From positions 310,001 to 374,000 of the forward strand of contig NZ_SDPU01000035.1 in the NCBI RefSeq assembly GCF_004168035.1: a stretch of 64,000 nt of DNA, written 5' to 3'. This DNA is from Nocardioides iriomotensis. GTDB lineage: Bacteria > Actinomycetota > Actinomycetes > Propionibacteriales > Nocardioidaceae. The notes below the pieces were generated by a model. That model ran no database searches. It saw only the letters and a program-made list of their open reading frames with translations, and was not told the origin of the DNA. The position numbers and the translations under genes were made by a program. Below are positions 3,953-16,903 of this stretch, one piece after another; within the stretch, counting starts at the first letter, position 1; each line of letters begins with the position of its first letter.

Positions 3953-5053
3953 ATGCGCGTGCTCATCGCCCCCGACAAGTTCGCCGGCACGCTCAGCGCC
4001 GTCGAGGCGGCCGCCGCCATCGCCGAGGGCTGGCGCCGCCGGGCACCGGGTGACGAGCTCGACCTCGCGCCCATGGCCGACGGAGGCCCGGGCTTCGTCG
4101 ACGTGCTGCACGCGACGCTCGGCGGCGACCTGCTCGCGGCCACCGTCCGCGGACCCTACGGCGACCCGGTGCCCGGCACGGTCCTCCGGGTCGGGGACAG
4201 CGCCTACGTGGAGGCCGCCCAGGCGTGCGGCCTGCACCTCACACCCGAGGACGACCGCCGGCCCGAGCACGCCTCGTCGTACGGCGTCGGCGAGTTGGTC
4301 GCCGCGGCGGTGGACGCCGGGGTGGCGAGGGTCGTGGTCGGGCTCGGCGGCACCGGGACCAACGACGCGGGAGCCGGCCTGCTCGCGGCCCTCGGCGCGA
4401 CCAGCACGCCCCCGGACGCGCTGACCGGGGGCCCGGCCGGTCTGGCCGGGCTCGACGCCGTCGACGTGGCCGCGGCGCGCGAGCGGGTGGCCGGCGTCGA
4501 GCTCGTCGCGGCGAGCGACGTCGACAACCCGCTGCTCGGGCTCATCGGCACCACCAACGTCTACGGCCCGCAGAAGGGGGTCGCCGACGACCGGCTGCAG
4601 GCCGTCGACGCCGCGCTCGAGCGGCTCGCCGCCGCGGCGGACAAGAAGCTCGCGCTGGCCAAGGGGGCGGGCGCGGCCGGCGGGCTGGGCTACGCACTGC
4701 TGCTGCTCGGGGCCGCCCGGGAGCCGGGCATCGCCCTGGTCGCCGACGCCGTGGGTCTGCCCACCCGGGCCCGCCGGGCCGACCTGGTCGTCACCGGTGA
4801 GGGCGCCTTCGACTTCTCGTCGCGCTCGGGCAAGGTGCCCTACGGCGTGGCCCAGGTCGCGGCCGAGGCGCTGCGACCCTGCATCGCGCTGGCCGGCCAG
4901 GTGCTGATCGGCTCGCGTGAGATGCGCGCCGTCGGGATCGAGTCGGCGTACTCCGTGGCCGACCTGGTGGGGCAGGAGGCCAGCTTCGCCGACCCCGCGG
5001 GGAGCCTGGCGGCGCTTGCGGAGCGCACCGCCCGCACCTGGTCCACCATGTGA
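3953..5053 (+). CDS. Glycerate kinase (GlxK/GarK family)
   Basis: Phosphorylates D-glycerate, feeding glyoxylate or serine breakdown into glycolysis. The 366-aa protein opens with MRVLIAPDKFAGTLSAVEAA, the classic family start, and carries MADGGPGFVD and LGGTGTNDAGAG, both conserved in the family. Length is normal. The start is ATG at 3953. The gene is followed by erpA, the same pairing as Rv2205c-Rv2204c in mycobacteria, but the functions are unrelated and the intergenic gap of about 100 bases suggests separate transcripts. Confidence 0.92.
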   Translation: MRVLIAPDKFAGTLSAVEAAAAIAEGWRRRAPGDELDLAPMADGGPGFVDVLHATLGGDLLAATVRGPYGDPVPGTVLRVGDSAYVEAAQACGLHLTPEDDRRPEHASSYGVGELVAAAVDAGVARVVVGLGGTGTNDAGAGLLAALGATSTPPDALTGGPAGLAGLDAVDVAAARERVAGVELVAASDVDNPLLGLIGTTNVYGPQKGVADDRLQAVDAALERLAAAADKKLALAKGAGAAGGLGYALLLLGAAREPGIALVADAVGLPTRARRADLVVTGEGAFDFSSRSGKVPYGVAQVAAEALRPCIALAGQVLIGSREMRAVGIESAYSVADLVGQEASFADPAGSLAALAERTARTWSTM

Positions 5054-5155
5054 GCGCATGTGACCCACGACGCACGGTCCGGGCGTGGGAATAGCCGGGG
5101 GTGTGCGACCATTGAAGACGAGCAAGAAGCCTCCGAGACCCATGGGAGCCAGCAG

Positions 5156-5518
5156 ATGACCGAGCAGGTCGAGACCGAGACCGCGGTTCGCACCGACAGC
5201 ATCAACGTGAGCGACGCCGCTGCCGCCAAGGTGAAGGCGCTCCTCGAGCAGGAGGGCCGCGACGACCTCCAGCTGCGCATCGCCGTCCAGCCGGGTGGCT
5301 GCTCCGGGCTGCGCTACCAGCTCTTCTTCGACGAGCGGAACCTCGACGGCGACGTCGTGACCGACTTCGACGGCGTGGCCGTGGTCGTCGACCGGATGAG
5401 CGTCCCGTACCTCAACGGCGCGGTGATCGACTTCGTCGACACGATCGAGAAGCAGGGCTTCACGATCGACAACCCCAACGCCACTGGCTCCTGCGCGTGC
5501 GGTGACTCGTTCCACTGA
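5156..5518 (+). CDS. erpA: Iron-sulfur cluster insertion protein ErpA (HesB/IscA type)
   Basis: A-type Fe-S carrier of 120 aa. The three cluster-binding cysteines are present: Cys49 in PGGCSGLRY, and Cys113 and Cys115 in the C-terminal GSCACGDSF. I chose ATG 5156 (MTEQVETETAVRTD) rather than an upstream in-frame ATG at 5060, because the upstream stretch is not family-like and the 120-aa length is normal. It probably delivers clusters to apo-proteins; candidates here include the Rieske subunit QcrA and quinolinate synthase NadA. A strong terminator follows the gene. Confidence 0.93.
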   Translation: MTEQVETETAVRTDSINVSDAAAAKVKALLEQEGRDDLQLRIAVQPGGCSGLRYQLFFDERNLDGDVVTDFDGVAVVVDRMSVPYLNGAVIDFVDTIEKQGFTIDNPNATGSCACGDSFH

Positions 5519-5595: not shown

Positions 5596-6192
5596 TCAGT
5601 ACGCCGGCTCGCCCTCGCTGCCGTCGCTGTACGGTGCGTCGGCGCGAGGAATCCGGGTGTCGTCGCGGGAGCCGTCACGCACCACCCGGTCGCCCAGGGG
5701 CGACTGCAGGGTGACGTCGACGGACCGCATCAGGGCGATGTCGATGCAGACGACCTCGCGGTCGCTCTTGGGCGGGGTCTTGGGCAGCGTCACCGTCACC
5801 GTGCTCGCGGTCTCCGCCACCTGCGGCTCGCCGACCGTGCCGTAGCACTCCGGGATGCCGGTCGCGTAGTTGAGCGCCAGCGTCGTGTCGTCCCGCGCGA
5901 ACCAGCCTTCGATCGCCTGGGTCCCCGCTTGCGGCGGCGGCGCGGCGTCAGGACCGGGCACGGGGGTGAGCCCGCCGTCCGGCCTGTCGGGCTGACCGGG
6001 ATCGGCGGGGTCGCCACCGCCGTCCTGGCCGGGGAAGCCGGGCACGGAGGACGCCGAGGGCGGAGCGGGCGCGGAGCCGAAGCCGGGCCCGGGGTCGCCC
6101 GGCCGCTGCGACCACCACACGGCGGCCATCACCAGCACCACGGCGAGCGCGGCGCCGGCGGGCACCAGCCAGCGGCGAAGTCCTGCGTCCAT
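5596..6192 (-). CDS. Membrane-anchored hypothetical protein with Pro/Gly-rich linker
   Basis: 198-aa protein with a single N-terminal membrane segment (about residues 8-26, LVPAGAALAVVLVMAAVWW). A long Pro/Gly/Asp-rich linker covers roughly residues 30-90, followed by a small extracytoplasmic domain of about 100 aa with two cysteines (PECYG and VVCIDI) that could form a disulfide. I recognise no family. In mycobacteria the equivalent place between erpA and adoK also holds a membrane protein (Rv2203), which may be functionally similar, but I cannot show homology. The ATG start at 6192 is the first codon before the hydrophobic segment. Confidence 0.65.
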   Translation of the reverse strand: MDAGLRRWLVPAGAALAVVLVMAAVWWSQRPGDPGPGFGSAPAPPSASSVPGFPGQDGGGDPADPGQPDRPDGGLTPVPGPDAAPPPQAGTQAIEGWFARDDTTLALNYATGIPECYGTVGEPQVAETASTVTVTLPKTPPKSDREVVCIDIALMRSVDVTLQSPLGDRVVRDGSRDDTRIPRADAPYSDGSEGEPAY

Positions 6193-6224: not shown

Positions 6225-6275
6225 CCCGGGCAGTTTGCCCGGGTCGTCCCGGATTGCATGGCCCACCTGGGCCAT
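6225..6275. promoter_or_regulatory. Two adjacent perfect inverted repeats in a divergent promoter region
   Basis: The first repeat has arms CCCGGGCA (6225-6232) and TGCCCGGG (6236-6243). The second has arms ATGGCCCA (6258-6265) and TGGGCCAT (6268-6275). Their centres are about 32 bases apart, close to three helical turns. They lie between the divergent genes at 6192 and 6390. They may be regulator-binding sites or leader hairpins; neither is proven. Confidence 0.4.
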
Positions 6276-6389
6276 CCAGGGGGTCCGGTCAGGGCATTCA
6301 CAGGCGCCCGGGGTGCCCAGTTGGCTGGTCCGACGGGCGGGGGGAGGGCCTCCGTCCCCTTGTTCCGACCCAGAGGGGGAGCACCACTC

Positions 6390-7442
6390 ATGACTTCACC
6401 CAGGAAGCGCGCGCTCGTGGTCGCCTGTGCCGGCGCCGTGGCCGCCGCGCTGGCCGCCGTACCCGCGGCCAACGGTGCGGGTTCGGCCCGCGCCGTCGAG
6501 GGACTCAACGGACCGCGCGGTCTCGACATCGGCCACGGCCGGATGATCGTCGCGGACTCCGACGGGGTCATCAGCGAGATCGACCGCAGCGACGACAGCG
6601 CGCACAAGATCGGCAAGGTCGCGAAGGGCTTCGGCTCCGCGGTCGCCGTCGCCGGCAACGGCGACGTGTGGGCGCTCACCGGCGGTGGGCACGGCACGCT
6701 CTACCTCTGGAGCGGCGACCACAAGCGCCGGGAGGTGCTCGACGTCGGCGCCTGGCAGAAGCGGCACAACCCCGACCCGTACGACCTCGAGGACAAGGCG
6801 GCGGAGAGCAACCCCTACGGTCTCGACGCCGTCGCGGACGGAGTCCTCGTCGCCGACGCGGCCAACAACTCGGTCATCCACGTGACCCGCAAGGGCAAGG
6901 TCACCCCGATCGCCCGGGTCAAGACCCGCACGGTCGAGATGCCCGAGGGCTTCGACGACCCGGAGCTGCCCCCCGCCGGCACGCCGATCCCGTCGGAGGC
7001 CGTCATCACGTCCGTGGTGCAGGGCAAGGACGGCGCGATCTACCTGGGCGAGCTCCGCGGCTTCCCGGCCACCCCGGGTACGTCGCAGGTGTGGCGTGTC
7101 GAGCCGGGCGCGCACGGCGCGGTCTGCAAGCCGAACAAGCCGACCAAGGGCGCCTGCACCCGGGTCGCCGACGGCCTCACCTCGATCGTCTCGCTGGCGA
7201 TCGGCGGCAACGGCGCCCTCTACGCGGCCGAGCTGTCCAAGATGGGCTGGCTGGCCGCCGAGATGCAGCTCGAGGGTTCCACCGAGGGCGCGATCATCAA
7301 GATCAGCAAGAACCGCGAGCGCATGCGCGAGCTCAGCCCCGGCAAGGTGCACCTGCCCGGCGGCGTGGCGGTCGGCGCGAACGGCAACGTGTTCACCTCC
7401 GGCCCGGTCTTCGGTCCGGGTGGGGTGATGAAGGTCGGCTGA
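6390..7442 (+). CDS. Secreted ScyD/ScyE-like beta-propeller protein
   Basis: 350-aa exported protein. I chose ATG 6390 (MTSPRKRALVVACAGAVAAA), which gives a proper signal peptide ending near AANGAGS and follows a GAGGGGGAG ribosome binding site; an earlier in-frame ATG at 6258 would bury the signal. The mature part contains repeated blade-like segments (NGPRGLDIGHGRMIVADSDG, ANPYGLDAVADG-type turns, IVSLAIGGNGALYAAELS, GGVAVGANGNVF) matching the ScyD/ScyE family of six-bladed propellers. In cyanobacteria those proteins belong to scytonemin clusters; in actinobacteria they are found alone and their role is unknown. A strong terminator follows. Confidence 0.75.
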   Translation: MTSPRKRALVVACAGAVAAALAAVPAANGAGSARAVEGLNGPRGLDIGHGRMIVADSDGVISEIDRSDDSAHKIGKVAKGFGSAVAVAGNGDVWALTGGGHGTLYLWSGDHKRREVLDVGAWQKRHNPDPYDLEDKAAESNPYGLDAVADGVLVADAANNSVIHVTRKGKVTPIARVKTRTVEMPEGFDDPELPPAGTPIPSEAVITSVVQGKDGAIYLGELRGFPATPGTSQVWRVEPGAHGAVCKPNKPTKGACTRVADGLTSIVSLAIGGNGALYAAELSKMGWLAAEMQLEGSTEGAIIKISKNRERMRELSPGKVHLPGGVAVGANGNVFTSGPVFGPGGVMKVG

Positions 7443-7746: not shown

Positions 7747-7850
7747 GGCAGTGACGCTAGGGATTACCGATCGGTACCCCAAGCCGGCCGGCAGGTAGGC
7801 TCCGCGTGTCCAGACCGCCCGGTTCCCCAGACCCCCCGAGGACCCCGCTC

Positions 7851-8837
7851 GTGTCGCTGCTCGTCACCGGATCGATCGCCACCGACCACCTGATGTCGTT
7901 CCCGGGCCGGTTCTCCGACTCGCTCGTCGTCGACCAGCTCGACAAGCTGTCGGTCTCGTTCCTGGTCGAGGACCTCGAGGTACGCCGCGGCGGCTGCGCC
8001 GCCAACATCTGCTTCGGGCTGGGCAACCTCGGCCTGCGTCCGGTGCTCGTGGGCGCGGTGGGCGAGGACTTCGTGGAGTACCGGAGCTGGCTCGAGCGGC
8101 ACCACGTCGACTGCGAGTCCGTGCACGTCTCCGAGACCCGGCACACCGCCCGGTTCGTCTGCACGACCGACAAGGACATGGCGCAGTTCGCGTCGTTCTA
8201 CGCCGGCGCGATGAGCGAGGCCCGCGAGATCGAGCTCAAGCCGATCGCCGACCGGGTCGGCGGCGCGACGTTCGTGCTGGTCGGCCCCAACGACCCCGAC
8301 GCGATGCTGCGGCACACCCAGGAGTGCCGCGAGCGCGGCATCCCGTTCCTCGCCGACCCGAGCCAGCAGCTCGCGTTCGGTGACGGCGAGCTGATCCGCG
8401 AGCTCATCGACGGCGCGCACATCCTGTTCAGCAACGAATACGAGTCCGCGCTGATCGAGAAGAAGACCGGCTGGACCAACGACGAGATCCTCGAGCGCGT
8501 GGGCACCCTCGTGGTCACGCTCGGCGCCGCCGGCGTGCGGGTGGAGCGGGCGGGGGAGGAGCCGATCGTCGTCCCGGCCGTGCCCGAGATCGAGAAGGTC
8601 GAGCCGACCGGCGTCGGCGACGCCTTCCGGGCGGGCTTCCTCGCCGCGCTCGAGTGGGGGCTGTCGCTCGAGCGCGCCGCCCAGCTCGGCTGCCTGCTCG
8701 CGGTGTACGTCGTCGAGCGGGTCGGCACGCAGGAGTACACCCTGCACCAGGCGGCGTTCGTGGAGCGGTTCGCCGAGACGTACGGCGAGGGCGCGGCCGC
8801 CGAGGTCGCGCAGCACGTCCGGACGCCGCGCCCCTGA
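7851..8837 (+). CDS. adoK: PfkB-family sugar/adenosine kinase (AdoK-like)
   Basis: 328-aa carbohydrate kinase starting at GTG 7851 (MSLLVTGSIATDHLMSFPGR); an in-frame upstream ATG at 7806 adds a proline-rich, non-conserved stretch. It has the PfkB signature 1 region RRGGCAANICFGLGNLG and signature 2 GVGDAFRAGF, with Asp257 as catalytic base. Position between erpA and ctaC matches Rv2202c, which was shown in mycobacteria to be an adenosine kinase, so purine salvage is the best guess. A ribokinase-like sugar substrate cannot be excluded. Confidence 0.85.
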   Translation: MSLLVTGSIATDHLMSFPGRFSDSLVVDQLDKLSVSFLVEDLEVRRGGCAANICFGLGNLGLRPVLVGAVGEDFVEYRSWLERHHVDCESVHVSETRHTARFVCTTDKDMAQFASFYAGAMSEAREIELKPIADRVGGATFVLVGPNDPDAMLRHTQECRERGIPFLADPSQQLAFGDGELIRELIDGAHILFSNEYESALIEKKTGWTNDEILERVGTLVVTLGAAGVRVERAGEEPIVVPAVPEIEKVEPTGVGDAFRAGFLAALEWGLSLERAAQLGCLLAVYVVERVGTQEYTLHQAAFVERFAETYGEGAAAEVAQHVRTPRP

Positions 8838-8867
8838 CGTCCTGAGCGAGTCCTGAGTCAGTCTCAG

Positions 8868-9098
8868 TCAGAGGGCGCGCCGCACCGTGTAGCGGGGCAC
8901 CCCGTCGTCGGCGGTGTCCTGCCCGACGAACTCGTGCCCGCGCATGCGGCACCACGCCTGCGTGTCAGGCCCCGTCGCCGGGTCGTCGGCGACCACCGCG
9001 ACGGTCCCACCCACGGGGACGTCGCCGATCGCGTTGGCGAGCCGGATCACCGGCAGCGGGCAGCGCAGCCCGCGGCAGTCGAGCTCGAGGTCGGTCAC
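8868..9098 (-). CDS. TusA/SirA-like sulfur carrier protein
   Basis: 76-aa protein starting at GTG 9098, whose start overlaps the stop of the upstream desulfurase homologue by 4 bases. It contains the family motif CRGLRCPLPVIRLANAI with the CPxP persulfide-carrying cysteine, and GTVAVVADDPATGPDTQAWC in the middle. TusA proteins accept sulfur as a persulfide and pass it to tRNA thiolation, molybdopterin or Fe-S pathways. Translational coupling to the desulfurase homologue suggests the two work together. The second cysteine (AWCRMRG) is common in this family. Confidence 0.88.
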   Translation of the reverse strand: MTDLELDCRGLRCPLPVIRLANAIGDVPVGGTVAVVADDPATGPDTQAWCRMRGHEFVGQDTADDGVPRYTVRRAL

Positions 9099-10234
9099 GG
9101 CCGGAGCCCCGCGACCGCGCTGGGCAGCACGTCGAGGAACGCGTCCACGTCGGCCTCCGTGGTGTCCCGGCCGAGCGAGACCCGGACGTTCCCGTGGGTG
9201 AGCGCGCCCATTGCCGCGAGCACGTGCGAGGGGGTCAACGTCGACGCGCTGCAGGCCGAGCCGCTCGACACCGCGAAGCCGTGCTTGTCCAGCTCGCGCA
9301 CCAGGGCCTCGCCCTCCACGTAGAGGCTGGAGAACGTGACGACGTGAGGGAGCCGGTCGTCGGGGTCGCCCACGATGTCCACGTCGGGCACCTCCGCGGC
9401 GACCCGGCCGCGGATCCGGTCGACCAGGGCTCGTTGCCGGGCGCCGGTCTCCTCGCGCTCGGCCACGACCGCCTGCAGCGCCGCGGCCGCGGCCAGCGCG
9501 CCCGGCACGTTCTCGAATCCCGCCACCCGGTGGTCGATCCGGTCGTCGGTGGGAAACGGTGAGCGCCAGCGCGTGCCGGTGCGCACCAGCAGCACGCCGA
9601 CGCCGGCCGGCCCGCCCCACTGCGCCGCCCCGGCGGACGCGGCCGCCCAGCCGGAGGGGAGTGGTAGCCGGCCCGCGGACGCGGCCGCGTCGACGAACAG
9701 TGGCACGTCCCGCGCCGCCGCGAGCTCGGCGACGGCCGCGATCGGCTGCACGGTGCCGACCTCCCCGTTGGCCGCCTGCACCGCGAGCACGCCGGCCCCC
9801 TGCGCGAGAGCGGCCTCGACCTCGGGGAGCAGCACCCTTCCGTGGGAGTCCACGCCGACCACGTCCGACGTACCACCGGAGGCGGACCACCACTCCGCTG
9901 CCTTGAACACCGCGGAGTGCTCGACGGCGGAGTGCACGAGACGGTCGCTCGCCCGGCGCCGGCCCTGGAGCAGGCCGAGGACGCCGCGGTGCACCGCCGT
10001 GGTGGCCGAGGACGTGAACGTCACCTCGTCCGGCCGGGCGCCCAGCAGGGACGCGGTGACCTCGCGCGCGTTGTCGAGCAGCAGACGTGCGTTGCGCCCC
10101 GCACCGTGCAGCCGCACCGGGTCGGCGTACCCCTGGTCGAGCGCCGCGAGCAGGGTCTCGCGCGCGGCGGGGTGCAGGGGCTCGGCGGAGGCGCTGTCGA
10201 GGTAGCCATGGGCCGCACCGGTCGGATAGGTCAC
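9095..10234 (-). CDS. Cysteine desulfurase-like protein (class V aminotransferase fold) lacking the PLP lysine
   Basis: 379-aa NifS/IscS homologue starting at GTG 10234. The catalytic cysteine loop is intact (SSGSACSAS, Cys328), as are His106 (AVEHSAV), the Asn in AANGEVGTVQ, Asp182 and the Arg in RVSLGRDTTE. However, the lysine that should bind pyridoxal phosphate is Gln205, within SAGAAQWGGPAGVG where SGHKxxGPKG is expected; the preceding His is Ala204, and the Gln that follows the PLP aspartate is Ala185. The codon is a clear CAG (9622-9620 on this strand) in an intact frame. It is therefore unlikely to be a normal PLP enzyme. Coupled to the TusA-like gene, it may be a sulfur-relay scaffold. 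Confidence 0.85.
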   Translation of the reverse strand: MTYPTGAAHGYLDSASAEPLHPAARETLLAALDQGYADPVRLHGAGRNARLLLDNAREVTASLLGARPDEVTFTSSATTAVHRGVLGLLQGRRRASDRLVHSAVEHSAVFKAAEWWSASGGTSDVVGVDSHGRVLLPEVEAALAQGAGVLAVQAANGEVGTVQPIAAVAELAAARDVPLFVDAAASAGRLPLPSGWAAASAGAAQWGGPAGVGVLLVRTGTRWRSPFPTDDRIDHRVAGFENVPGALAAAAALQAVVAEREETGARQRALVDRIRGRVAAEVPDVDIVGDPDDRLPHVVTFSSLYVEGEALVRELDKHGFAVSSGSACSASTLTPSHVLAAMGALTHGNVRVSLGRDTTEADVDAFLDVLPSAVAGLRP

Positions 10235-10325
10235 ACCCGTGAAACTACCGGGCCCTGCACGGCATTCACCCCAGCCTCAGTAGTAGTGTTCGGGCTGACC
10301 GTCGTCGTGAGAGAGAGGCTCGTTC

Positions 10326-11210
10326 GTGGGTCTGGAACTCCCCCCGCGTGCCCGCAGGGTCGGACTGCTGACCGTCGGGTCCGCGGGCCTCCTGCTGCTT
10401 GGCGCCTGCTCAGTCGAAGACCAGGCGCAGATCCGGCGTCTGGCGATGCCGGAGCCGGTCACCGACCGTGCTCCGTTCATCTACGACCTGTGGCACGGCG
10501 CCTGGATCGCCGCCATCATCGTCGGCATCATCGTCTGGGGCCTGATCGGCTGGGCGGCCTGGAAGTACCGCCGTCGCGCCGAGGACGAGATCCCCGTGCA
10601 GACGCGGTACAACCTGCCGATCGAGATCCTCTACACGGTCGCGCCGATCGTGATGGTGCTGGTGTTCTTCTACTACACCGTCACCACGCAGAACGACGTG
10701 CTCGAGGAGGTCAGCGCCGACCAGGCCGACCACAACATCAAGGTCGTGGGCCAGCAGTGGTCGTGGACCTTCAACTACATCGAGGACGACGCGCTGGACG
10801 GCTCGACCTCGGTCTACGAGGGCGGTACGACGGCCGACCGGCCGACGCTCGTGCTCCCGGTCGACGAGTCGGTGCGCGTCGAGCTGCTGTCGCCCGACGT
10901 CATCCACTCGTTCTGGGTGCCGGCGTTCCTGTTCAAGATGGACGTCATCCCCGGCCGCGCCAACAGCTTCTCGTTCACGCCGACCGAGGAGGGCACCTTC
11001 GTGGGCCGCTGCGCCGAGCTGTGCGGCGCGTACCACTCGCGGATGCTCTTCAACGTCGACGTCGTGAGCGCGGACGAGTACGCCCAGCACCTCGCCGATC
11101 TGCAGGAGCAGGGCAACACCGGTGAGGCCCTCGGCGGCTCCGACGCCACGACGCAGCCCGGTCTCGAGGACGAGGTCCAGGACGACGACACGACGGAGGG
11201 GTCGGAGTGA
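10326..11210 (+). CDS. ctaC: Cytochrome c oxidase subunit II CtaC
   Basis: 294-aa subunit II of the aa3 oxidase. It starts at GTG 10326 after a GAGAGAGAG ribosome binding site and has a lipoprotein signal with lipobox LLGAC (Cys28). Two membrane segments follow near residues 55-75 and 100-120. The CuA site is complete: HSFWVPAF and [12 protein letters not shown]. It accepts electrons, in actinobacteria directly from the diheme cytochrome QcrC in the bcc-aa3 supercomplex. It overlaps ctaD by 4 bases. The C-terminal tail after the CuA domain is acidic. Confidence 0.97.
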
Positions 11211-12988
11211 CCGACACAGCCGCATTCCAGGCCGGGCGCACGCGCACCGTGCCGAAGACGCTGGGCCAGCAGGTCGTGCGCGTGCTGACCACCACCGACC
11301 ACAAGCTGATCGGCAAGCTCTACCTGGGCACGTCGTTCGCGTGGTTCCTCGTCGGCGGCGTGATGGCGCTGCTCATCCGCTCCGAGCTGGCGTTCCCGGG
11401 CAACCAGGTGGTCAGCGACGAGGTCTACAACCAGCTGTTCACCATGCACGGCACGATCATGCTGCTGCTGTTCGCGACGCCGCTGTTCTTCGGCTTCTCC
11501 AACGTGATCATGCCGCTGCAGATCGGTTCGCCCGACGTGGCGTTCCCGCGCCTCAACATGTTCAGCTACTGGCTGTTCCTGTTCGGCGGACTGATCGCCG
11601 CCGTCGGCTTCCTGACCCCCGAGGGCGCGGCCGACTTCGGCTGGTTCGCCTACACGCCGCTGTCCAACGAGGTCCGCTCGCCGGGCGTGGGCGGTGACCT
11701 GTGGATCATGGGTCTGTGGATGGCCGGTTTGGGCACCATCCTCGGCGCGGTCAACTTCATCACCACGATCATCTGCATGCGCGCGCCCGGCATGACGATG
11801 TTCCGGCTCCCGATCTTCGTCTGGAACACCCTGGTCACCAGCCTGCTCGTGCTGATCGCGTTCCCGATCCTGGCCGGCGCGCTGCTGTCGCTCGAGGCCG
11901 ACCGGATGCTCGGGGCGCACGTCTTCGACGCCGCCAACGGCGGCCCGATCCTGTGGCAGCACTTGTTCTGGTTCTTCGGGCACCCCGAGGTCTACATCAT
12001 CGCGCTGCCGTTCTTCGGCATCATCACCGAGGTCCTCCCGGTGTTCAGCCGCAAGCCGGTCTTCGGCTACGTCGGCCTGGTCGCCGCGACGATCTCGATC
12101 GCGGTGCTGTCGGTGGCCGTGTGGGCGCACCACATGTTCGTGACCGGCGCCGTCGACCTGCCGTTCTTCTCCGGCATGACGTTCCTGATCGCCGTACCCA
12201 CAGGTGTGAAGTTCTTCAACTGGATCGGCACGATGTGGGGCGGGTCGATCTCGTTCGACACCCCCATGCTCTGGTCGATCGGCTTCCTGACGACGTTCCT
12301 CTTCGGCGGCCTGACCGGCGTCATCCTGGCCAGCCCGCCGCTGGACTTCGCGGTCTCCGACTCCTACTTCGTGGTGGCGCACTTCCACTACGTGGTGTTC
12401 GGCACCGTGGTGTTCGCGATGTTCGCCGGCTTCTACTTCTGGTGGCCGAAGATGACCGGCCGGATGCTCGACGAGCGGCTCGGCAAGGCCCACTTCTGGC
12501 TGCTGTTCATCGGCTTCCACACCACCTTCCTCGTGCAGCACTGGCTGGGCGTCGAGGGCATGCCGCGCCGCTACGCCGACTACCTCCCGAGCGACGGGTT
12601 CACCACGCTCAACCAGGTGTCCACGGTCGGCGCGTTCCTGCTCGGCGCCTCGACGTTGCCGTTCCTGTACAACGTGTACAAGTCGAGCCGCAGCCCGATG
12701 GTCGAGCGCGACGACCCGTGGGGCTGGGGCCGCTCGCTGGAGTGGGCGACGTCCTCGCCCCCGCCGCGGCACAACTTCGTGACCATCCCGCGGATCCGGT
12801 CCGAGTCGCCGGCGTTCGACTTGCACCACCCCGAGGTGGCCGCGCTCGAGATGGAGCAGAACGACAAGCTCGGCGAGAGCGACATCGTCGACGCGCCCAG
12901 CGTCGAGGGCCGCGCGGAGCTGCTGCGCGACAACCTGCAGGACCAGGGCAAGACGATCCCGCACGACCGCGACGGAGGCGACAACTGA
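11207..12988 (+). CDS. ctaD: Cytochrome c oxidase subunit I CtaD
   Basis: 593-aa catalytic subunit holding heme a and the heme a3-CuB centre where oxygen is reduced. Twelve membrane segments are apparent. The metal ligands are visible as [10 protein letters not shown] (heme a His), [13 protein letters not shown] (CuB His and the cross-linked Tyr), AHHMFVTG (CuB His pair) and AHFHYVVFG (heme His pair). The start is GTG at 11207, overlapping the ctaC stop, and the stop overlaps ctaF. In mycobacteria ctaD lies elsewhere, whereas here ctaC-ctaD-ctaF form one operon. Confidence 0.97.
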
Positions 12989-13386
12989 TGAAGGCTGAAG
13001 CCTGGCTGTTCGTCATCTGCTCGGTGTTCTTCGTGCTGGTGGCCCCGGCCTACTGGCTGATCGCCAAGGACCCCACGGGCACCTCCGCGCTGGTGATGAC
13101 CGCGCTGCTCATGCTGCTGGTGACCTTCTACCTCGGCTTCCACGCGTCCCGCATGGAGCCGCGCCCGGAGGACCGCAAGGACGCCGAGATCGCTGAGGGC
13201 GCCGGTGAGCTCGGGTTCTTCCCGCCGTACAGCTGGTGGCCGCTGTGGTGCGCCGCCACGCTCGGCCTGATCGTGTTCGGCACCGCGATGGGCGCCTGGT
13301 GGCTGCTCATCATCGGCGTCGGCCTGGGCTCCATCGCCCTGTGCGGCTGGATCTATGAGTACTACCGCGGAGAGCACGCTCACTGA
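12988..13386 (+). CDS. ctaF: Cytochrome c oxidase subunit IV CtaF
   Basis: 132-aa small integral subunit of the actinobacterial aa3 oxidase. Four hydrophobic segments are apparent (about residues 5-25, 33-52, 82-101 and 104-122), and the FFPPYSWWPLW stretch in the middle is typical of the family. The ATG start shares one base with the ctaD stop (TGATG). It is the last gene of the operon and a strong terminator follows 21 bases later. Confidence 0.93.
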   Translation: MKAEAWLFVICSVFFVLVAPAYWLIAKDPTGTSALVMTALLMLLVTFYLGFHASRMEPRPEDRKDAEIAEGAGELGFFPPYSWWPLWCAATLGLIVFGTAMGAWWLLIIGVGLGSIALCGWIYEYYRGEHAH

Positions 13387-13407
13387 GCGCGCCGTGACCC
13401 GAACGTG

Positions 13408-13444
13408 ACGGGCCCCACCAGCCGCGGAGGCAGGTGGGGCCCGT
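13408..13444 (+). terminator. Terminator hairpin after ctaCDF
   Basis: Inverted repeat with 12-base arms ACGGGCCCCACC (13408-13419) and GGTGGGGCCCGT (13433-13444), a 13-base loop, and TCCCGTTGTT downstream. It ends the cytochrome oxidase operon and lies about 50 bases before the next start. Confidence 0.82.
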
Positions 13445-13493
13445 TCCCGTTGTTACCCTGGATGAGCAGCTGTACGTCGCACGAGGGGATCCC

Positions 13494-14741
13494 ATGTCCA
13501 TCCACGGCACTCATCCGCGCCCGCAGGCGCGTCGACGCCTGCCCGCGCTCGCCGCCGGGCTGTCCCTCGCCATCGCGCTCGCCGGCTGCACCGCCGGCGC
13601 CAACGACGACGACGCGGCCGCCCCGATCGGCGGCGGCGACGGGCCCGGCCAGGCCGAGGAGTCGGCTACTCCCGAACCGGCCGCCACCATCTCCACGAAC
13701 CTCCCCAAAACGGGCACGGTCCCGGTTGACGGGACGCTCGAGCTGACCGCGACCGACGGCACGTTCCGCAAGGTCGCCGTCACCTTCGGCAAGCGCAACC
13801 GGCCGCTTAAGGGCGACCTGAGCAGCGACAAGACGGCGTGGACGTCCGCGCAGCGCCTCGAGCCCGGGCTGCGCTACCGCGTCCGCAGCGTCGCCGTCGA
13901 CGTCGACGGGCTCGAGACGCGCTCGTCCAAGGTGTTCCGGACCGACGCGCTCACGCTCGACCAGCAGACCTTCCCGTCCGTCGCGCCGCTCTCCGGCGAG
14001 GTCGTGGGCGTCGGCATGCCGGTCATCGTGCAGTTCGACGTACCCGTCACCGACAAGGCGTCGATCGAGAAGCACCTGACCGTCACCTCCTCGCCCCAGC
14101 AAGCCGGCGCCTGGCACTGGATCAGCGACAACGAGGTGCACTGGCGGCCGCGGACCTACTGGCAGCCCGGCACCCAGGTCACCGTCGACGCCGACGTCAA
14201 CTCGATCCCGGCGGGCAACGGCGTCTACGGCCAGCTCAGCCGGTCCACCAGCTTCACCGTGGGCGACGCGATGGTCAGCCGGGTCGACATCGCCCGGCAC
14301 ACCATGAAGGTGTTCAAGAACGGCACCCTGCTGCGCACCCTGCCGATCACCACGGGCAAGGCGGGCTTCACCACCCGCTCCGGCACGAAGGTGATCATCG
14401 AGAAGTTCCGCGAGCGCCGGATGAACTCCGAGACCGTCGGCATCAACCGCGACGACCCGGAGTACTACGACATCGACGACGTCGAGTACGCCATGCGGCT
14501 GACCTACTCCGGCGAGTTCATCCACGCCGCCCCGTGGTCGGTCGGCTCCCAGGGCTACGCCAACGTCAGCCACGGCTGCACCGGCATGAGCACCGCCAAC
14601 GCGGCCTGGCTCTACAACATCTCCAAGCGCGGTGACGTCGTGGAGTACACCGGCAGCGACCGCTGGATGACGCTCACCAACGGGTACGGCGACTGGAACG
14701 AGCGGTTCCGCCAGTACCGCGCCGGCTCCGCCCTGAGCTGA
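13494..14741 (+). CDS. L,D-transpeptidase lipoprotein (YkuD domain)
   Basis: 415-aa cell-wall cross-linking enzyme forming 3-3 links in peptidoglycan. The start is ATG 13494, after a CGAGGGGA ribosome binding site. Residues 1-32 form a lipoprotein signal with lipobox LAGC (Cys32). Two Ig-like domains occupy about residues 60-260, then the YkuD catalytic domain. His344 and the SHGC motif (Ser359-Cys362) are intact, with Cys362 as nucleophile; the usual HGCxN asparagine is replaced in SHGCTGMS, as in mycobacterial Ldt proteins. The layout resembles LdtMt2. It stands alone between the two respiratory operons. Confidence 0.93.
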   Translation: MSIHGTHPRPQARRRLPALAAGLSLAIALAGCTAGANDDDAAAPIGGGDGPGQAEESATPEPAATISTNLPKTGTVPVDGTLELTATDGTFRKVAVTFGKRNRPLKGDLSSDKTAWTSAQRLEPGLRYRVRSVAVDVDGLETRSSKVFRTDALTLDQQTFPSVAPLSGEVVGVGMPVIVQFDVPVTDKASIEKHLTVTSSPQQAGAWHWISDNEVHWRPRTYWQPGTQVTVDADVNSIPAGNGVYGQLSRSTSFTVGDAMVSRVDIARHTMKVFKNGTLLRTLPITTGKAGFTTRSGTKVIIEKFRERRMNSETVGINRDDPEYYDIDDVEYAMRLTYSGEFIHAAPWSVGSQGYANVSHGCTGMSTANAAWLYNISKRGDVVEYTGSDRWMTLTNGYGDWNERFRQYRAGSALS

Positions 14742-14865
14742 TCGGACGGCCGGGTCTCGGTCCTACGGCCGACCCGGTGTCCTCCTGAGGGAGGACGTGG
14801 CGGCCCGTCGAGATCGGACTCCAGTACCTGGTGGGCGAGGGGCCCTGATCGGCAGGCTTGTCCTC

Positions 14866-15039
14866 ATGAACACGCCGATCACCACCGCCATCGCCCTCAT
14901 GTCCTTCGACTCCTCGATGACCACGCTGGGCTCCGCCCGTCGTGACCGCCAGGTGCGCCGCACGGTGCGCGCCATGAACCGCGCCGGCCGGCACGAGCAC
15001 GCACGACGACGCTCGCACGCCTCGCCGCCACCGATCTGA
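14866..15039 (+). CDS. Possible small basic protein
   Basis: 57-codon open frame from ATG 14866 (MNTPITTAIALMSFDSSMTT), very rich in Arg and His in its second half. Third codon positions are strongly GC-biased, as in real genes here, but the ribosome binding site is weak and I know no homologue. It is the only candidate in the 377-base gap between the transpeptidase (ends 14741) and qcrB (ends 15119). The rest of that gap holds two weak hairpins (arms 14750-14756/14771-14777 and 14779-14785/14790-14796) and the qcrB terminator. Confidence 0.35.
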   Translation: MNTPITTAIALMSFDSSMTTLGSARRDRQVRRTVRAMNRAGRHEHARRRSHASPPPI

Positions 15040-15063
15040 CCGACGTTCGACCACCCGGATGGA

Positions 15064-15103
15064 CGACGAAGGGCCCCACCGCGAACGGTGGGGCCCTTCG
15101 TCG
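15064..15103. terminator. Terminator hairpin after qcrB
   Basis: Perfect 17-base inverted repeat, arms CGACGAAGGGCCCCACC (15064-15080) and GGTGGGGCCCTTCGTCG (15087-15103), loop GCGAAC. It lies 15 bases beyond the qcrB stop on the minus strand and is the strongest hairpin in the window. Since it is symmetric it can also stop plus-strand transcription from 14866. Confidence 0.88.
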
Positions 15104-15118
15104 TTGCCTGTCAGTGAC

Positions 15119-16903
15119 TCAGTGCTGGCGGAGCTCCTCGCCGGAGACGCCATGACGGCCGTCGAACTGGTGGCCGTCGGCCGCGTGGCCGTCGAGCTCG
15201 TAGTCACCGGTGTAGTCGCCGCTGACGTGCTGGTGCCCGTCGTCGCGCACGGCCAGCTCGTGCTCGGCGTGGTGCCGGGCCTCCTCGAGCTCCGTCGTGG
15301 TCGGCTTCTGCACGTTGTGGGCGAACCACGCACGTGAGAGGCGGGCCCGCAGCCGGTGGAGCCGGACGTGGCGGGCTGCCACGCCGTTCTCGTCGGCGGC
15401 GGTCGGAGCCGGGAGCAGCGGGTCGCGGTCGCGGGCGGTGAGGGTGTAGGCCTCGTCGCCGGAGATCGGCAGGTGCTTCTCGGCGTACGCGCCCTCAGGG
15501 GAGCGCATGATCACGCCGGTCTCGTAGCCGTGCAGCAGCCGGGCCTCGTCCTGACGCTGGAGCGAGATGCACCAGCGCCTGGTGACGATGAACGCGACCA
15601 CCGGGGCGACGAAGACCATGACCCGCATGAAGTACGTGATGTAGTTCAGGTTCAGGTTGAAGATCACGGCCAGGAGGTCGTTGCCGCCGGCCATCCAGAG
15701 CATGCCGTACGCGGTCATGAGCGAGACCAGGAACGCGGTGCGGGTGGGCGCGTTGCGCGGCCGCTGCAGCAGGTGGTGCTCCCGCTTGTCTCCGGTGATC
15801 CAGGCCTCGATGAACGGGTACGCCAACATCGCGGCGAGGAACATCACCGGGATGATCTGGCCGGGAAGCATCACGTTCCAGCTGATCGTGAAGCCGAAGA
15901 TGTGCGTCTCCCAGCCGGGCATGATCCGCAGCAGACCCTCGGCGAACCCCATGTACCAGTCGGGCTGCGAGCCCGCGGTCACCTCGGCCGGGTTGTACGG
16001 GCCGTAGCGCCACACCGGGTTGATGCTGAGCAGGCCGCCCATCAGGGCGGTCACGCCGAAGACGATGAAGAAGAAACCGCCCGCCTTCGCGGCGTACACC
16101 GGCAGCATCGGGTAGCCGACGACGTTGTTGTTCGTGCGGCCGGGGCCGGGCCACTGCGTGTGCTTCTGGTACACGAGCAGCAGCATGTGCAGCCCGATCA
16201 GCGCCAGCAGGATGCCCGGGATCAGCAGCACGTGCACGATGTAGAGCCGCGGGATGATCACATCACCCGGGAACTCCCCGCCGAACATGAAGAACGACAT
16301 GTACGTGCCGAGGACGGGGGTCGCCTTGACGAGGCCGTCGGCGATCCGGAGGCCGGTGCCGGACAGCAGGTCGTCGGGCAGCGAGTAGCCGGCGAAGCCC
16401 TCGATGACACCGAGCAGCAGGAGCAGCAGCCCGATCAGATAGTTGAGCTCGCGCGGCTTGCGGAAGGCGCCGGTGAAGAACACGCGCATCATGTGCACGA
16501 ACATCGCGGCGATGAAGAGCATCGCCGACCAGTGGTGCATCTGGCGCATCAGCAGGCCGCCGCGAATGTCGAACGAGATGTCCAGCGTGGAGGCGTAGGC
16601 CTCCGACATGTGCAGTCCGCGGAGCTGGTCGTAGGAGCCGTCGTAGACGACCTCGGCCATGCTCGGCTTGAACCACAGCGTGAGGAACGTGCCGGTGAGC
16701 AGCAGGACGACGAAGCTCCACAGGGCGATCTCGCCCAGCATGAACGACCAGTGGTCGGGGAAGACCTTGCGGATCTGCTTCTTCGACACCGCGGCCAGAC
16801 CGGTCCGGTCGTCGGCCCAGGTCAGCAGCCCGCCGAGGGGGTTCGCACGCTTGGCCGTCGCGGCCTTGGCGCCGTTGGTGGTTGCATGACTCATCGTTGT
16901 CAC
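15119..16903 (-). CDS. qcrB: Cytochrome bc1 complex subunit b QcrB
   Basis: 594-aa menaquinol-oxidising subunit with the two b hemes. His ligands are visible in RQMHHWSAMLFI/FVHMMRVFF and in YIVHVLLIPG/GLHMLLLV, and the quinol-site PDWYMGF replaces the PEWY of classical cytochrome b as in actinobacteria. The GTG start at 16903 overlaps the qcrA stop; an ATG three codons later is also possible. The last 50 or so residues form an unusual hydrophilic tail rich in His, Asp and Gly. QcrB is the target of inhibitors such as telacebec (Q203) in mycobacteria. Confidence 0.97.
   Translation of the reverse strand: MTTMSHATTNGAKAATAKRANPLGGLLTWADDRTGLAAVSKKQIRKVFPDHWSFMLGEIALWSFVVLLLTGTFLTLWFKPSMAEVVYDGSYDQLRGLHMSEAYASTLDISFDIRGGLLMRQMHHWSAMLFIAAMFVHMMRVFFTGAFRKPRELNYLIGLLLLLLGVIEGFAGYSLPDDLLSGTGLRIADGLVKATPVLGTYMSFFMFGGEFPGDVIIPRLYIVHVLLIPGILLALIGLHMLLLVYQKHTQWPGPGRTNNNVVGYPMLPVYAAKAGGFFFIVFGVTALMGGLLSINPVWRYGPYNPAEVTAGSQPDWYMGFAEGLLRIMPGWETHIFGFTISWNVMLPGQIIPVMFLAAMLAYPFIEAWITGDKREHHLLQRPRNAPTRTAFLVSLMTAYGMLWMAGGNDLLAVIFNLNLNYITYFMRVMVFVAPVVAFIVTRRWCISLQRQDEARLLHGYETGVIMRSPEGAYAEKHLPISGDEAYTLTARDRDPLLPAPTAADENGVAARHVRLHRLRARLSRAWFAHNVQKPTTTELEEARHHAEHELAVRDDGHQHVSGDYTGDYELDGHAADGHQFDGRHGVSGEELRQH

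Follow-up and report, generated by a model that had tools for sequence, protein, structure and literature searches.

The locus and its genes

The window is the whole stretch of DNA that we analysed, 64,000 nucleotides from Nocardioides iriomotensis. It contains two overlapping genes on the minus strand, one for an IscS/NifS-like protein and one for a TusA-like sulfur carrier. On one side they are flanked by ctaC, on the other by a kinase gene. The features are:

9095..10234, minus strand: lysine-less IscS/NifS-like protein (379 aa, P0001) with a class V aminotransferase fold (Pfam, AlphaFold, structure match)
9620..9622, minus strand: codon 205, CAG (Gln), in the place of the PLP lysine, K206 of E. 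coli IscS (alignment)
9623..9631, minus strand: codons 202-204, Gly-Ala-Ala; Ser-Ala-His in the nearest relative (IscS S203, G204, H205; alignment)
9680..9682, minus strand: codon 185, Ala against Gln183 of IscS; common in the family and not specific to this gene (alignment)
9251..9253, minus strand: codon of Cys328, within the motif SGSAC; all 292 orthologues covering the site have Cys there (orthologue alignment)
8868..9098, minus strand: TusA-like sulfur carrier, 76 aa, with CPLP and a second Cys in AWCRMR (Pfam)
9095..9098, minus strand: GTGA, overlap of the stop of the desulfurase-like gene and the start of the TusA-like gene (sequence)
10326..11210, plus strand: ctaC, subunit II of aa3 cytochrome oxidase, divergent neighbour in a conserved arrangement (NF050117, 318 bits, cut-off 250)
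7806..8837, plus strand: gene for a PfkB-type kinase, convergent with the pair and retained in most loci (Pfam PfkB, 3e-47)

The desulfurase-like reading frame runs from 10234 to 9095, starts with GTG, encodes 379 amino acids and has no internal stop. The GC content at its three codon positions is 79/55/94%, hence it is a coding frame. The initial annotation, which gave no strand, described an intact frame with CAG at codon 205 and a stop that overlaps the start of a TusA-like gene. Both descriptions are correct: the TGA stop and the GTG start share GTGA, and the downstream protein scores 65.1 bits against a Pfam TusA cut-off of 28.6, with CPLP kept. It is the sole TusA match in the genome at E 0.001. 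The same genome encodes an IscS with the lysine beside mnmA, and a SufS beside sufC. The wider neighbourhood (3953-5518 and 7806-16903) holds genes for a glycerate kinase, an ErpA-like protein, the PfkB kinase, ctaC, ctaD, an L,D-transpeptidase with an Ig domain and QcrB. The reading frames at 5596-6192 (minus strand) and 6258-7442 (plus strand) have no Pfam match at E 0.001.

The window protein has the fold of a cysteine desulfurase. It matches Pfam Aminotran_5 with 139.7 bits (E 1.6e-40). AlphaFold, given an alignment of the window protein and 37 proteins from named loci, returns a model with pLDDT 91 and pTM 0.91, in which residues 329-333, after Cys328, fall below pLDDT 50. We superposed this model on Foldseek-ranked PDB chains with VIA-align. 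Among the 1000 best-ranked chains the best match is M. tuberculosis IscS (4isy; Z 50.2, rmsd 1.4, 362 residues), followed by human NFS1 and E. coli IscS, the latter also in complex with TusA (Z 49.0). The protein lies under all listed NCBIfam cut-offs (NifS, IscS, DndA, SufS; for NifS 255.3 against 530.75). The ordinary IscS of the same genome misses the cut-offs as well, so this miss says little.

Aligned with E. coli IscS, the protein keeps His106 (H104), Asp182 (D180), Cys328 (C328) and Arg351 (R354), as the initial annotation had recognised. It was also right that the PLP lysine K206 is replaced by Gln205 and H205 by Ala204; the change from S203 to Gly202 was absent from it. Thr78 and Asn156 (IscS Asn154) are kept too, Gly stands in the place of IscS Asn155, and Cys328 lies in the loop SSGSACSAS. 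In IscS the PLP phosphate is bound by Thr76, Ser203 and His205. The only lysines of the window protein are 111 and 317.

Ala185 had been listed as a further loss. It does align with Gln183 of IscS, but it cannot serve as a mark of this protein: 176 of the 243 lysine-bearing orthologues described below have Ala there. In the same 243 proteins Asn155 is replaced by His in 210 and Thr243 by Phe in 203. With such unusual pockets, even the activity of the lysine-bearing members is not to be assumed.

A sequencing error or frameshift at the lysine site was considered and rejected. Codons 202 (GGG), 204 (GCG) and 205 (CAG) all differ in meaning from those of the nearest relative, which excludes a single sequencing error, and the same kind of loss is found in other assemblies.

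Recurrent loss of the lysine

In 149 genomes of the family we found 70 orthologues, 69 of which cover the lysine site. The lysine is present in 61 and absent from 8 (Q, Q, L, L, A, A, R, S). The nearest relative, L004, belongs to the same genus, is 80% identical and reads Ser-Ala-His-Lys. The initial annotation proposed to see whether Gln and Ala at 205/204 are conserved among homologues, and named a Lys at position 205 in close relatives as a refuting result. L004 shows that the two residues are not conserved, and it carries that Lys. Since the outgroups and L004 have the lysine, the simplest reading is that the window's lineage lost it recently, after parting from L004.

Searches of the order, the class and named contigs brought the survey to 343 readings, 293 of them distinct once duplicates had been removed; IscS and SufS paralogues are excluded from these. 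The genome searches were made within the window's class. The named-contig search used a pattern containing the Cys, and the best 80 of 371 confirmed places were taken. In the 293 rows the lysine column reads K in 247, A in 17, S in 11, D in 5, Q, L, R, M and G in 2 each, and H and T in 1 each, while one row does not cover it. Thus 45 of the 292 covering orthologues are lysine-less. This ratio is not a frequency, because 30 class genomes were chosen for a low score, 40 stretches were chosen for spread and a subset of the 192 class genomes with a match was read; the fair figure near the window is the 8 of 69 of the family sample. Ten different residues occur at the site, and a specific replacement can therefore be discarded.

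Several other residues hardly vary. Cys328 is found in 292 of 292 rows, Arg351 in 293 of 293, Asp182 in 290 of 292, Asn156 in 288 of 292 and His106 in 279 of 289. When rows found only by the Cys-containing pattern are left out, the lysine is lost in 45 of 254 and Cys328 is present in all 254. Three of the best 80 named loci are without the lysine. Named lysine-less members come from uncultured Nocardioidaceae AVDCRST_MAG72 (L073) and AVDCRST_MAG34 (L097) and from Nocardioides sp. AX2bis (L129). In one genus of a sister family, all 12 matches have Ala at the site and open frames.

As a control we sought the canonical IscS in 30 genomes. In 28 of these the TusA-paired gene is lysine-less, while in G278 and G640 it has the lysine. 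No IscS matched in G010 at E 1e-90. In the 29 remaining genomes, which include 27 with a lysine-less TusA-paired gene, IscS has both Lys and Cys without exception. Hence the loss of the lysine in the TusA-paired gene exceeds chance.

To count the losses, we built a FastTree phylogeny of 288 orthologues and an IscS outgroup, with the trait columns excluded and five partial rows dropped. Parsimony requires at least 17 changes between Lys and non-Lys, with 19 maximal lysine-less clades. Supported branches alone give 12 independent pairs. An IQ-TREE phylogeny of 58 rows, centred on the family of the window, has 12 changes, and its starred branches carry 7 pairs. Among the deep lysine-less rows the count is less certain, since some of them branch off with poor support. 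Overall, parsimony puts the number of changes at about 17, and supported branches alone require at least 12. One loss is very young: it separates L164 (Met205, Arg184) from L160 (Lys205, Cys184), two proteins that are 96% identical.

The lysine-less genes are under purifying selection. For 12 lysine-less pairs dN/dS (NG86) is 0.12-0.36 in 11, and one pair is saturated; for 12 lysine-bearing pairs it is 0.10-0.37 (ratios computed by hand). The window gene and L004 give 0.30. Relative-rate tests are non-significant in 9 of 12 lysine-less tips, among them the window gene (34 against 21 changes, chi2 3.07). The other three tips (L069, L228 and L070) evolve faster than their nearest lysine-bearing relatives. 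One lysine-bearing member, L208 in genome G402, has an internal TAG and is possibly a pseudogene.

What changes and what stays with the lysine

The gene order around the protein is conserved. We counted neighbours in the 276 distinct loci for which 900 bases were available to either side. In 270 of them ctaC lies upstream in divergent orientation, as it does in 43 of 43 lysine-less loci, which identifies the loci as orthologous. The PfkB-type kinase is convergent in 238 of the 276 distinct loci (duplicate L073 removed). TusA lies directly downstream in 39 of the 45 lysine-less rows and is fused in 2. For the 247 lysine-bearing rows it is downstream in 236, fused in 4, convergent in 1 and absent in 6. 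The convergent case is L004, in which tusA is reversed. Fusions to the C-terminus occur in two settings: two lysine-less rows of one genus (L294, L299) and four lysine-bearing rows of another genus, which has large genomes and is probably Streptomyces (L309, L329, L341, L344). The TusA partners have CPxP in 41 of 41 lysine-less cases and in 236 of 237 lysine-bearing rows of the tree, and a second Cys, by pattern, in 35 of 41 and 229 of 237. We conclude that many actinobacteria have a conserved pair, an IscS/NifS-derived protein with TusA, divergent from ctaC, and that the window gene is its lysine-less form.

The partnership may not be strict. In four of the 45 lysine-less loci (L250, L293, L296 and L300) there is no TusA within the stretch read, which weakens the idea of TusA as an obligatory partner. 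Since Cys328 is kept at these four loci, the presence of TusA may not be the whole reason for the Cys. In three of the four genomes a single TusA match lies elsewhere (L375, L376 and L377), beside reading frames that look by eye like DsrE, rhodanese and 4Fe-4S ferredoxin. Weak TusA matches in G337 and G044 lie inside long reading frames; they look spurious and were set aside.

Which residues change together with the lysine? We compared 45 lysine-less with 243 lysine-bearing rows, giving the lysine-less count first. Changes at Thr78 occur in 31 against 6 rows, at Ser202 in 32 against 1 and at His204 in 36 against 13. His106 is changed in 10 against 0 and Asp182 in 2 against 0. Cys328, Arg351 and Glu158 are changed in none of either group. 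In clade-weighted tests, the six PLP positions have a mean conservation drop of 0.39, against 0.07 in other conserved columns (reached by 0 of 100,000 column shuffles), and the 18 conserved columns in 319-351 have a mean drop of 0.017, which is below average (p 7e-5); both sets of columns had already been inspected before the test.

Counted over independent pairs, Ser202 is lost with the lysine in about 7 of 12 and goes the opposite way in about 0 (median p 0.016). For Thr78 (3.5 of 12) and His204 (5.3 of 12) the association is not significant. Residue 184 is Arg in five lysine-less rows (L018, L051, L129, L164 and L209) and in 0 of 243 lysine-bearing rows, with about 4 changes along the tree. 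That Arg184 compensates for the lost lysine is not proven: it goes with the loss in 3-4 of 12 independent pairs (p 0.125), a number with which the pair test cannot reach 0.05.

Another lysine could in principle take over. In 20 of the 45 lysine-less members the domain as aligned contains no lysine at all, so in those members it cannot. The window protein still has Lys111 and Lys317. Six lysine-less members (L018, L025, L051, L129, L164 and L209) keep Thr78, Ser202 and His204, and might bind PLP non-covalently.

Possible functions and known systems

The lysine is lost, the Cys and TusA are kept, and selection is purifying. Hence a function without the internal aldimine is likely. Very probably the window protein is not a normal PLP cysteine desulfurase, yet it is a maintained protein. 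As to what it does, we lean slightly towards a desulfurase-derived partner of TusA that works without PLP catalysis, probably as a persulfide relay through Cys328. For the relay chemistry itself we see the chances as even. The interpretation in the initial annotation, a PLP-free protein that would pass sulfur to TusA, is thus supported in part (lysine lost, Cys and TusA kept, purifying selection) and loses the conservation of Gln205/Ala204 and the special role of Ala185.

On this relay reading, Cys328 together with TusA would carry the function that the family needs, and PLP catalysis would have no part in it. Cys328 would take sulfane sulfur from another source, either IscS or SufS, both encoded in the window's genome, or a small persulfide held by Arg351 in the old substrate pocket. 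It would then hand the sulfur to a Cys of TusA. In E. coli, according to excerpts of PMC11302665, persulfide transfer from IscS goes through Cys19 of TusA; in the complex this residue is 4 A away from Cys328. In an intermediate of H. pylori NifS the substrate carboxylate is bound by Arg354, and E. coli IscS R354K is fully active (both from parts of PMC9978102); a constant Arg351 therefore need not mean substrate binding. A bolder proposal, which we make tentatively, is a PLP-free transpersulfidase. The former desulfurase pocket, still with Arg351 and Glu158 but without the PLP cup, would bind a small persulfide, for instance cysteine persulfide, and pass the sulfane sulfur to Cys328 and on to TusA. 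Desulfurases would then have turned many times from making to collecting sulfane sulfur, and Arg184 would mark one route by filling the emptied site.

Alternatively, Cys328 could be conserved for a structural or regulatory role, or because it binds a metal. If sulfur handling is gone altogether, the protein would be an inactive scaffold or regulator that binds TusA, perhaps also IscS, and governs how much TusA is available or how stable it is, with the Cys loop as the dock. This would account for a lost catalytic site next to a kept TusA neighbour and C-terminal half, and for a lysine loss tolerated at least 12 times. We nevertheless regard it as unlikely. Beyond the loop, the Cys itself is invariant (292 of 292 orthologues), and TusA Cys mutants of E. 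coli bind IscS with similar affinity (PMC11302665, in part), so docking alone seems not to need the thiols. In the ligand role, Cys328 would help to bind a metal or an Fe-S cluster on a partner, without donating sulfur. There is a precedent: the IscS of Archaeoglobus fulgidus has Asp for Lys, is reported in excerpts of PMC7585200 to be without desulfurase activity, and ligates a cluster on IscU through its Cys. The same excerpts also name a natural lysine-less IscS in Methanosarcina (M. acetivorans IscS1), and the statement in the initial annotation that no such function had been described was too strong. The window protein matches the A. fulgidus fold (4eb5) with Z 48.1. Its linked partner, however, is TusA, a sulfur carrier with CPxP and not IscU, and next to the gene we identified no partner that binds a cluster, which makes a ligand role improbable here.

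Could the protein still be a PLP enzyme, holding PLP without the internal aldimine and desulfurating cysteine slowly or with another base? E. coli IscS K206A retains some PLP, and the authors speculate that His104 partly replaces the Lys at a very low rate (parts of PMC9978102). The window protein keeps His106, Asp182 and Thr78, six lysine-less members keep the phosphate-site residues, and a 2013 paper calls A. fulgidus IscS, in its title, an "unusual L-cysteine desulfurase". Yet K206A is reported there as inactive, as are H104Q and Q183E (PMC9978102), the window protein also lacks the equivalents of S203 and H205, and ten different residues at the lysine site mean that none was selected as a substitute base. 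We give continued PLP catalysis very little credence. A decaying gene, in which drift has begun because the desulfurase is no longer needed, is scarcely credible. The closest relative still has the lysine and L208, albeit lysine-bearing, carries a TAG, as decay would have it. Against this stand the dN/dS values of 0.12-0.36 in 11 lysine-less pairs and of 0.30 between the window gene and L004, the non-significant relative rates in 9 of 12 tips (window included), the 12 open lysine-less frames of a single genus and the invariant Cys328 and Arg351.

Most sulfur trafficking is considered to begin with cysteine desulfurases and to depend on PLP at this step. If a family can repeatedly do without the catalytic lysine, but not without the persulfide Cys and mostly not without TusA, this would separate making sulfane sulfur from passing it on. 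L164 and L160, 96% identical with Met against Lys at the site, are a matched pair for a test. One can now also test which client TusA serves in actinobacteria and what the constant presence of ctaC next door means. For annotators there is a warning: on the strength of fold and Cys loop, such proteins will probably be given the label cysteine desulfurase.

How does the window protein compare with known systems? Among the titles listed by our searches of open-licence PMC papers we found no report of a recurrent lysine loss or of the ctaC-linked pair, no characterised member among the lysine-bearing orthologues, and nothing relevant on another PLP enzyme with His for Lys. The lysine-bearing ctaC-linked orthologues occupy the same position with TusA beside or fused, and they keep the PLP lysine and mostly Ser202, Thr78 and His204. 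Class I IscS/NifS proteins (E. coli; M. tuberculosis 4isy) share the fold (Z about 49-50), the His, the Asp, the Cys loop and the Arg, whereas the window protein is without the PLP lysine and the equivalents of Ser203, His205 and Gln183.

The E. coli IscS-TusA complex (3lvj) resembles the window pair in combining a desulfurase fold with TusA, and the window TusA keeps both Cys. IscS D52 and R223 (roles from parts of PMC2854127 and PMC11302665) are kept as Asp54 and Arg222, while the equivalent of E49 is Leu and that of R220 is Thr. E. coli IscS is active and has many partners, and its gene lies in the isc cluster with no tusA within the 6.5 kb read. The A. fulgidus IscS (4eb5, 4hvk; D199K mutant 4r5f) shares the IscS fold, a replaced PLP lysine and a kept Cys loop. 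It and M. acetivorans IscS1 are archaeal, and the partner of the former is IscU, whereas the window protein is linked to TusA at a ctaC locus. In contrast to archaeal IscS, the actinobacterial family shows many independent losses of the lysine with many different replacements.
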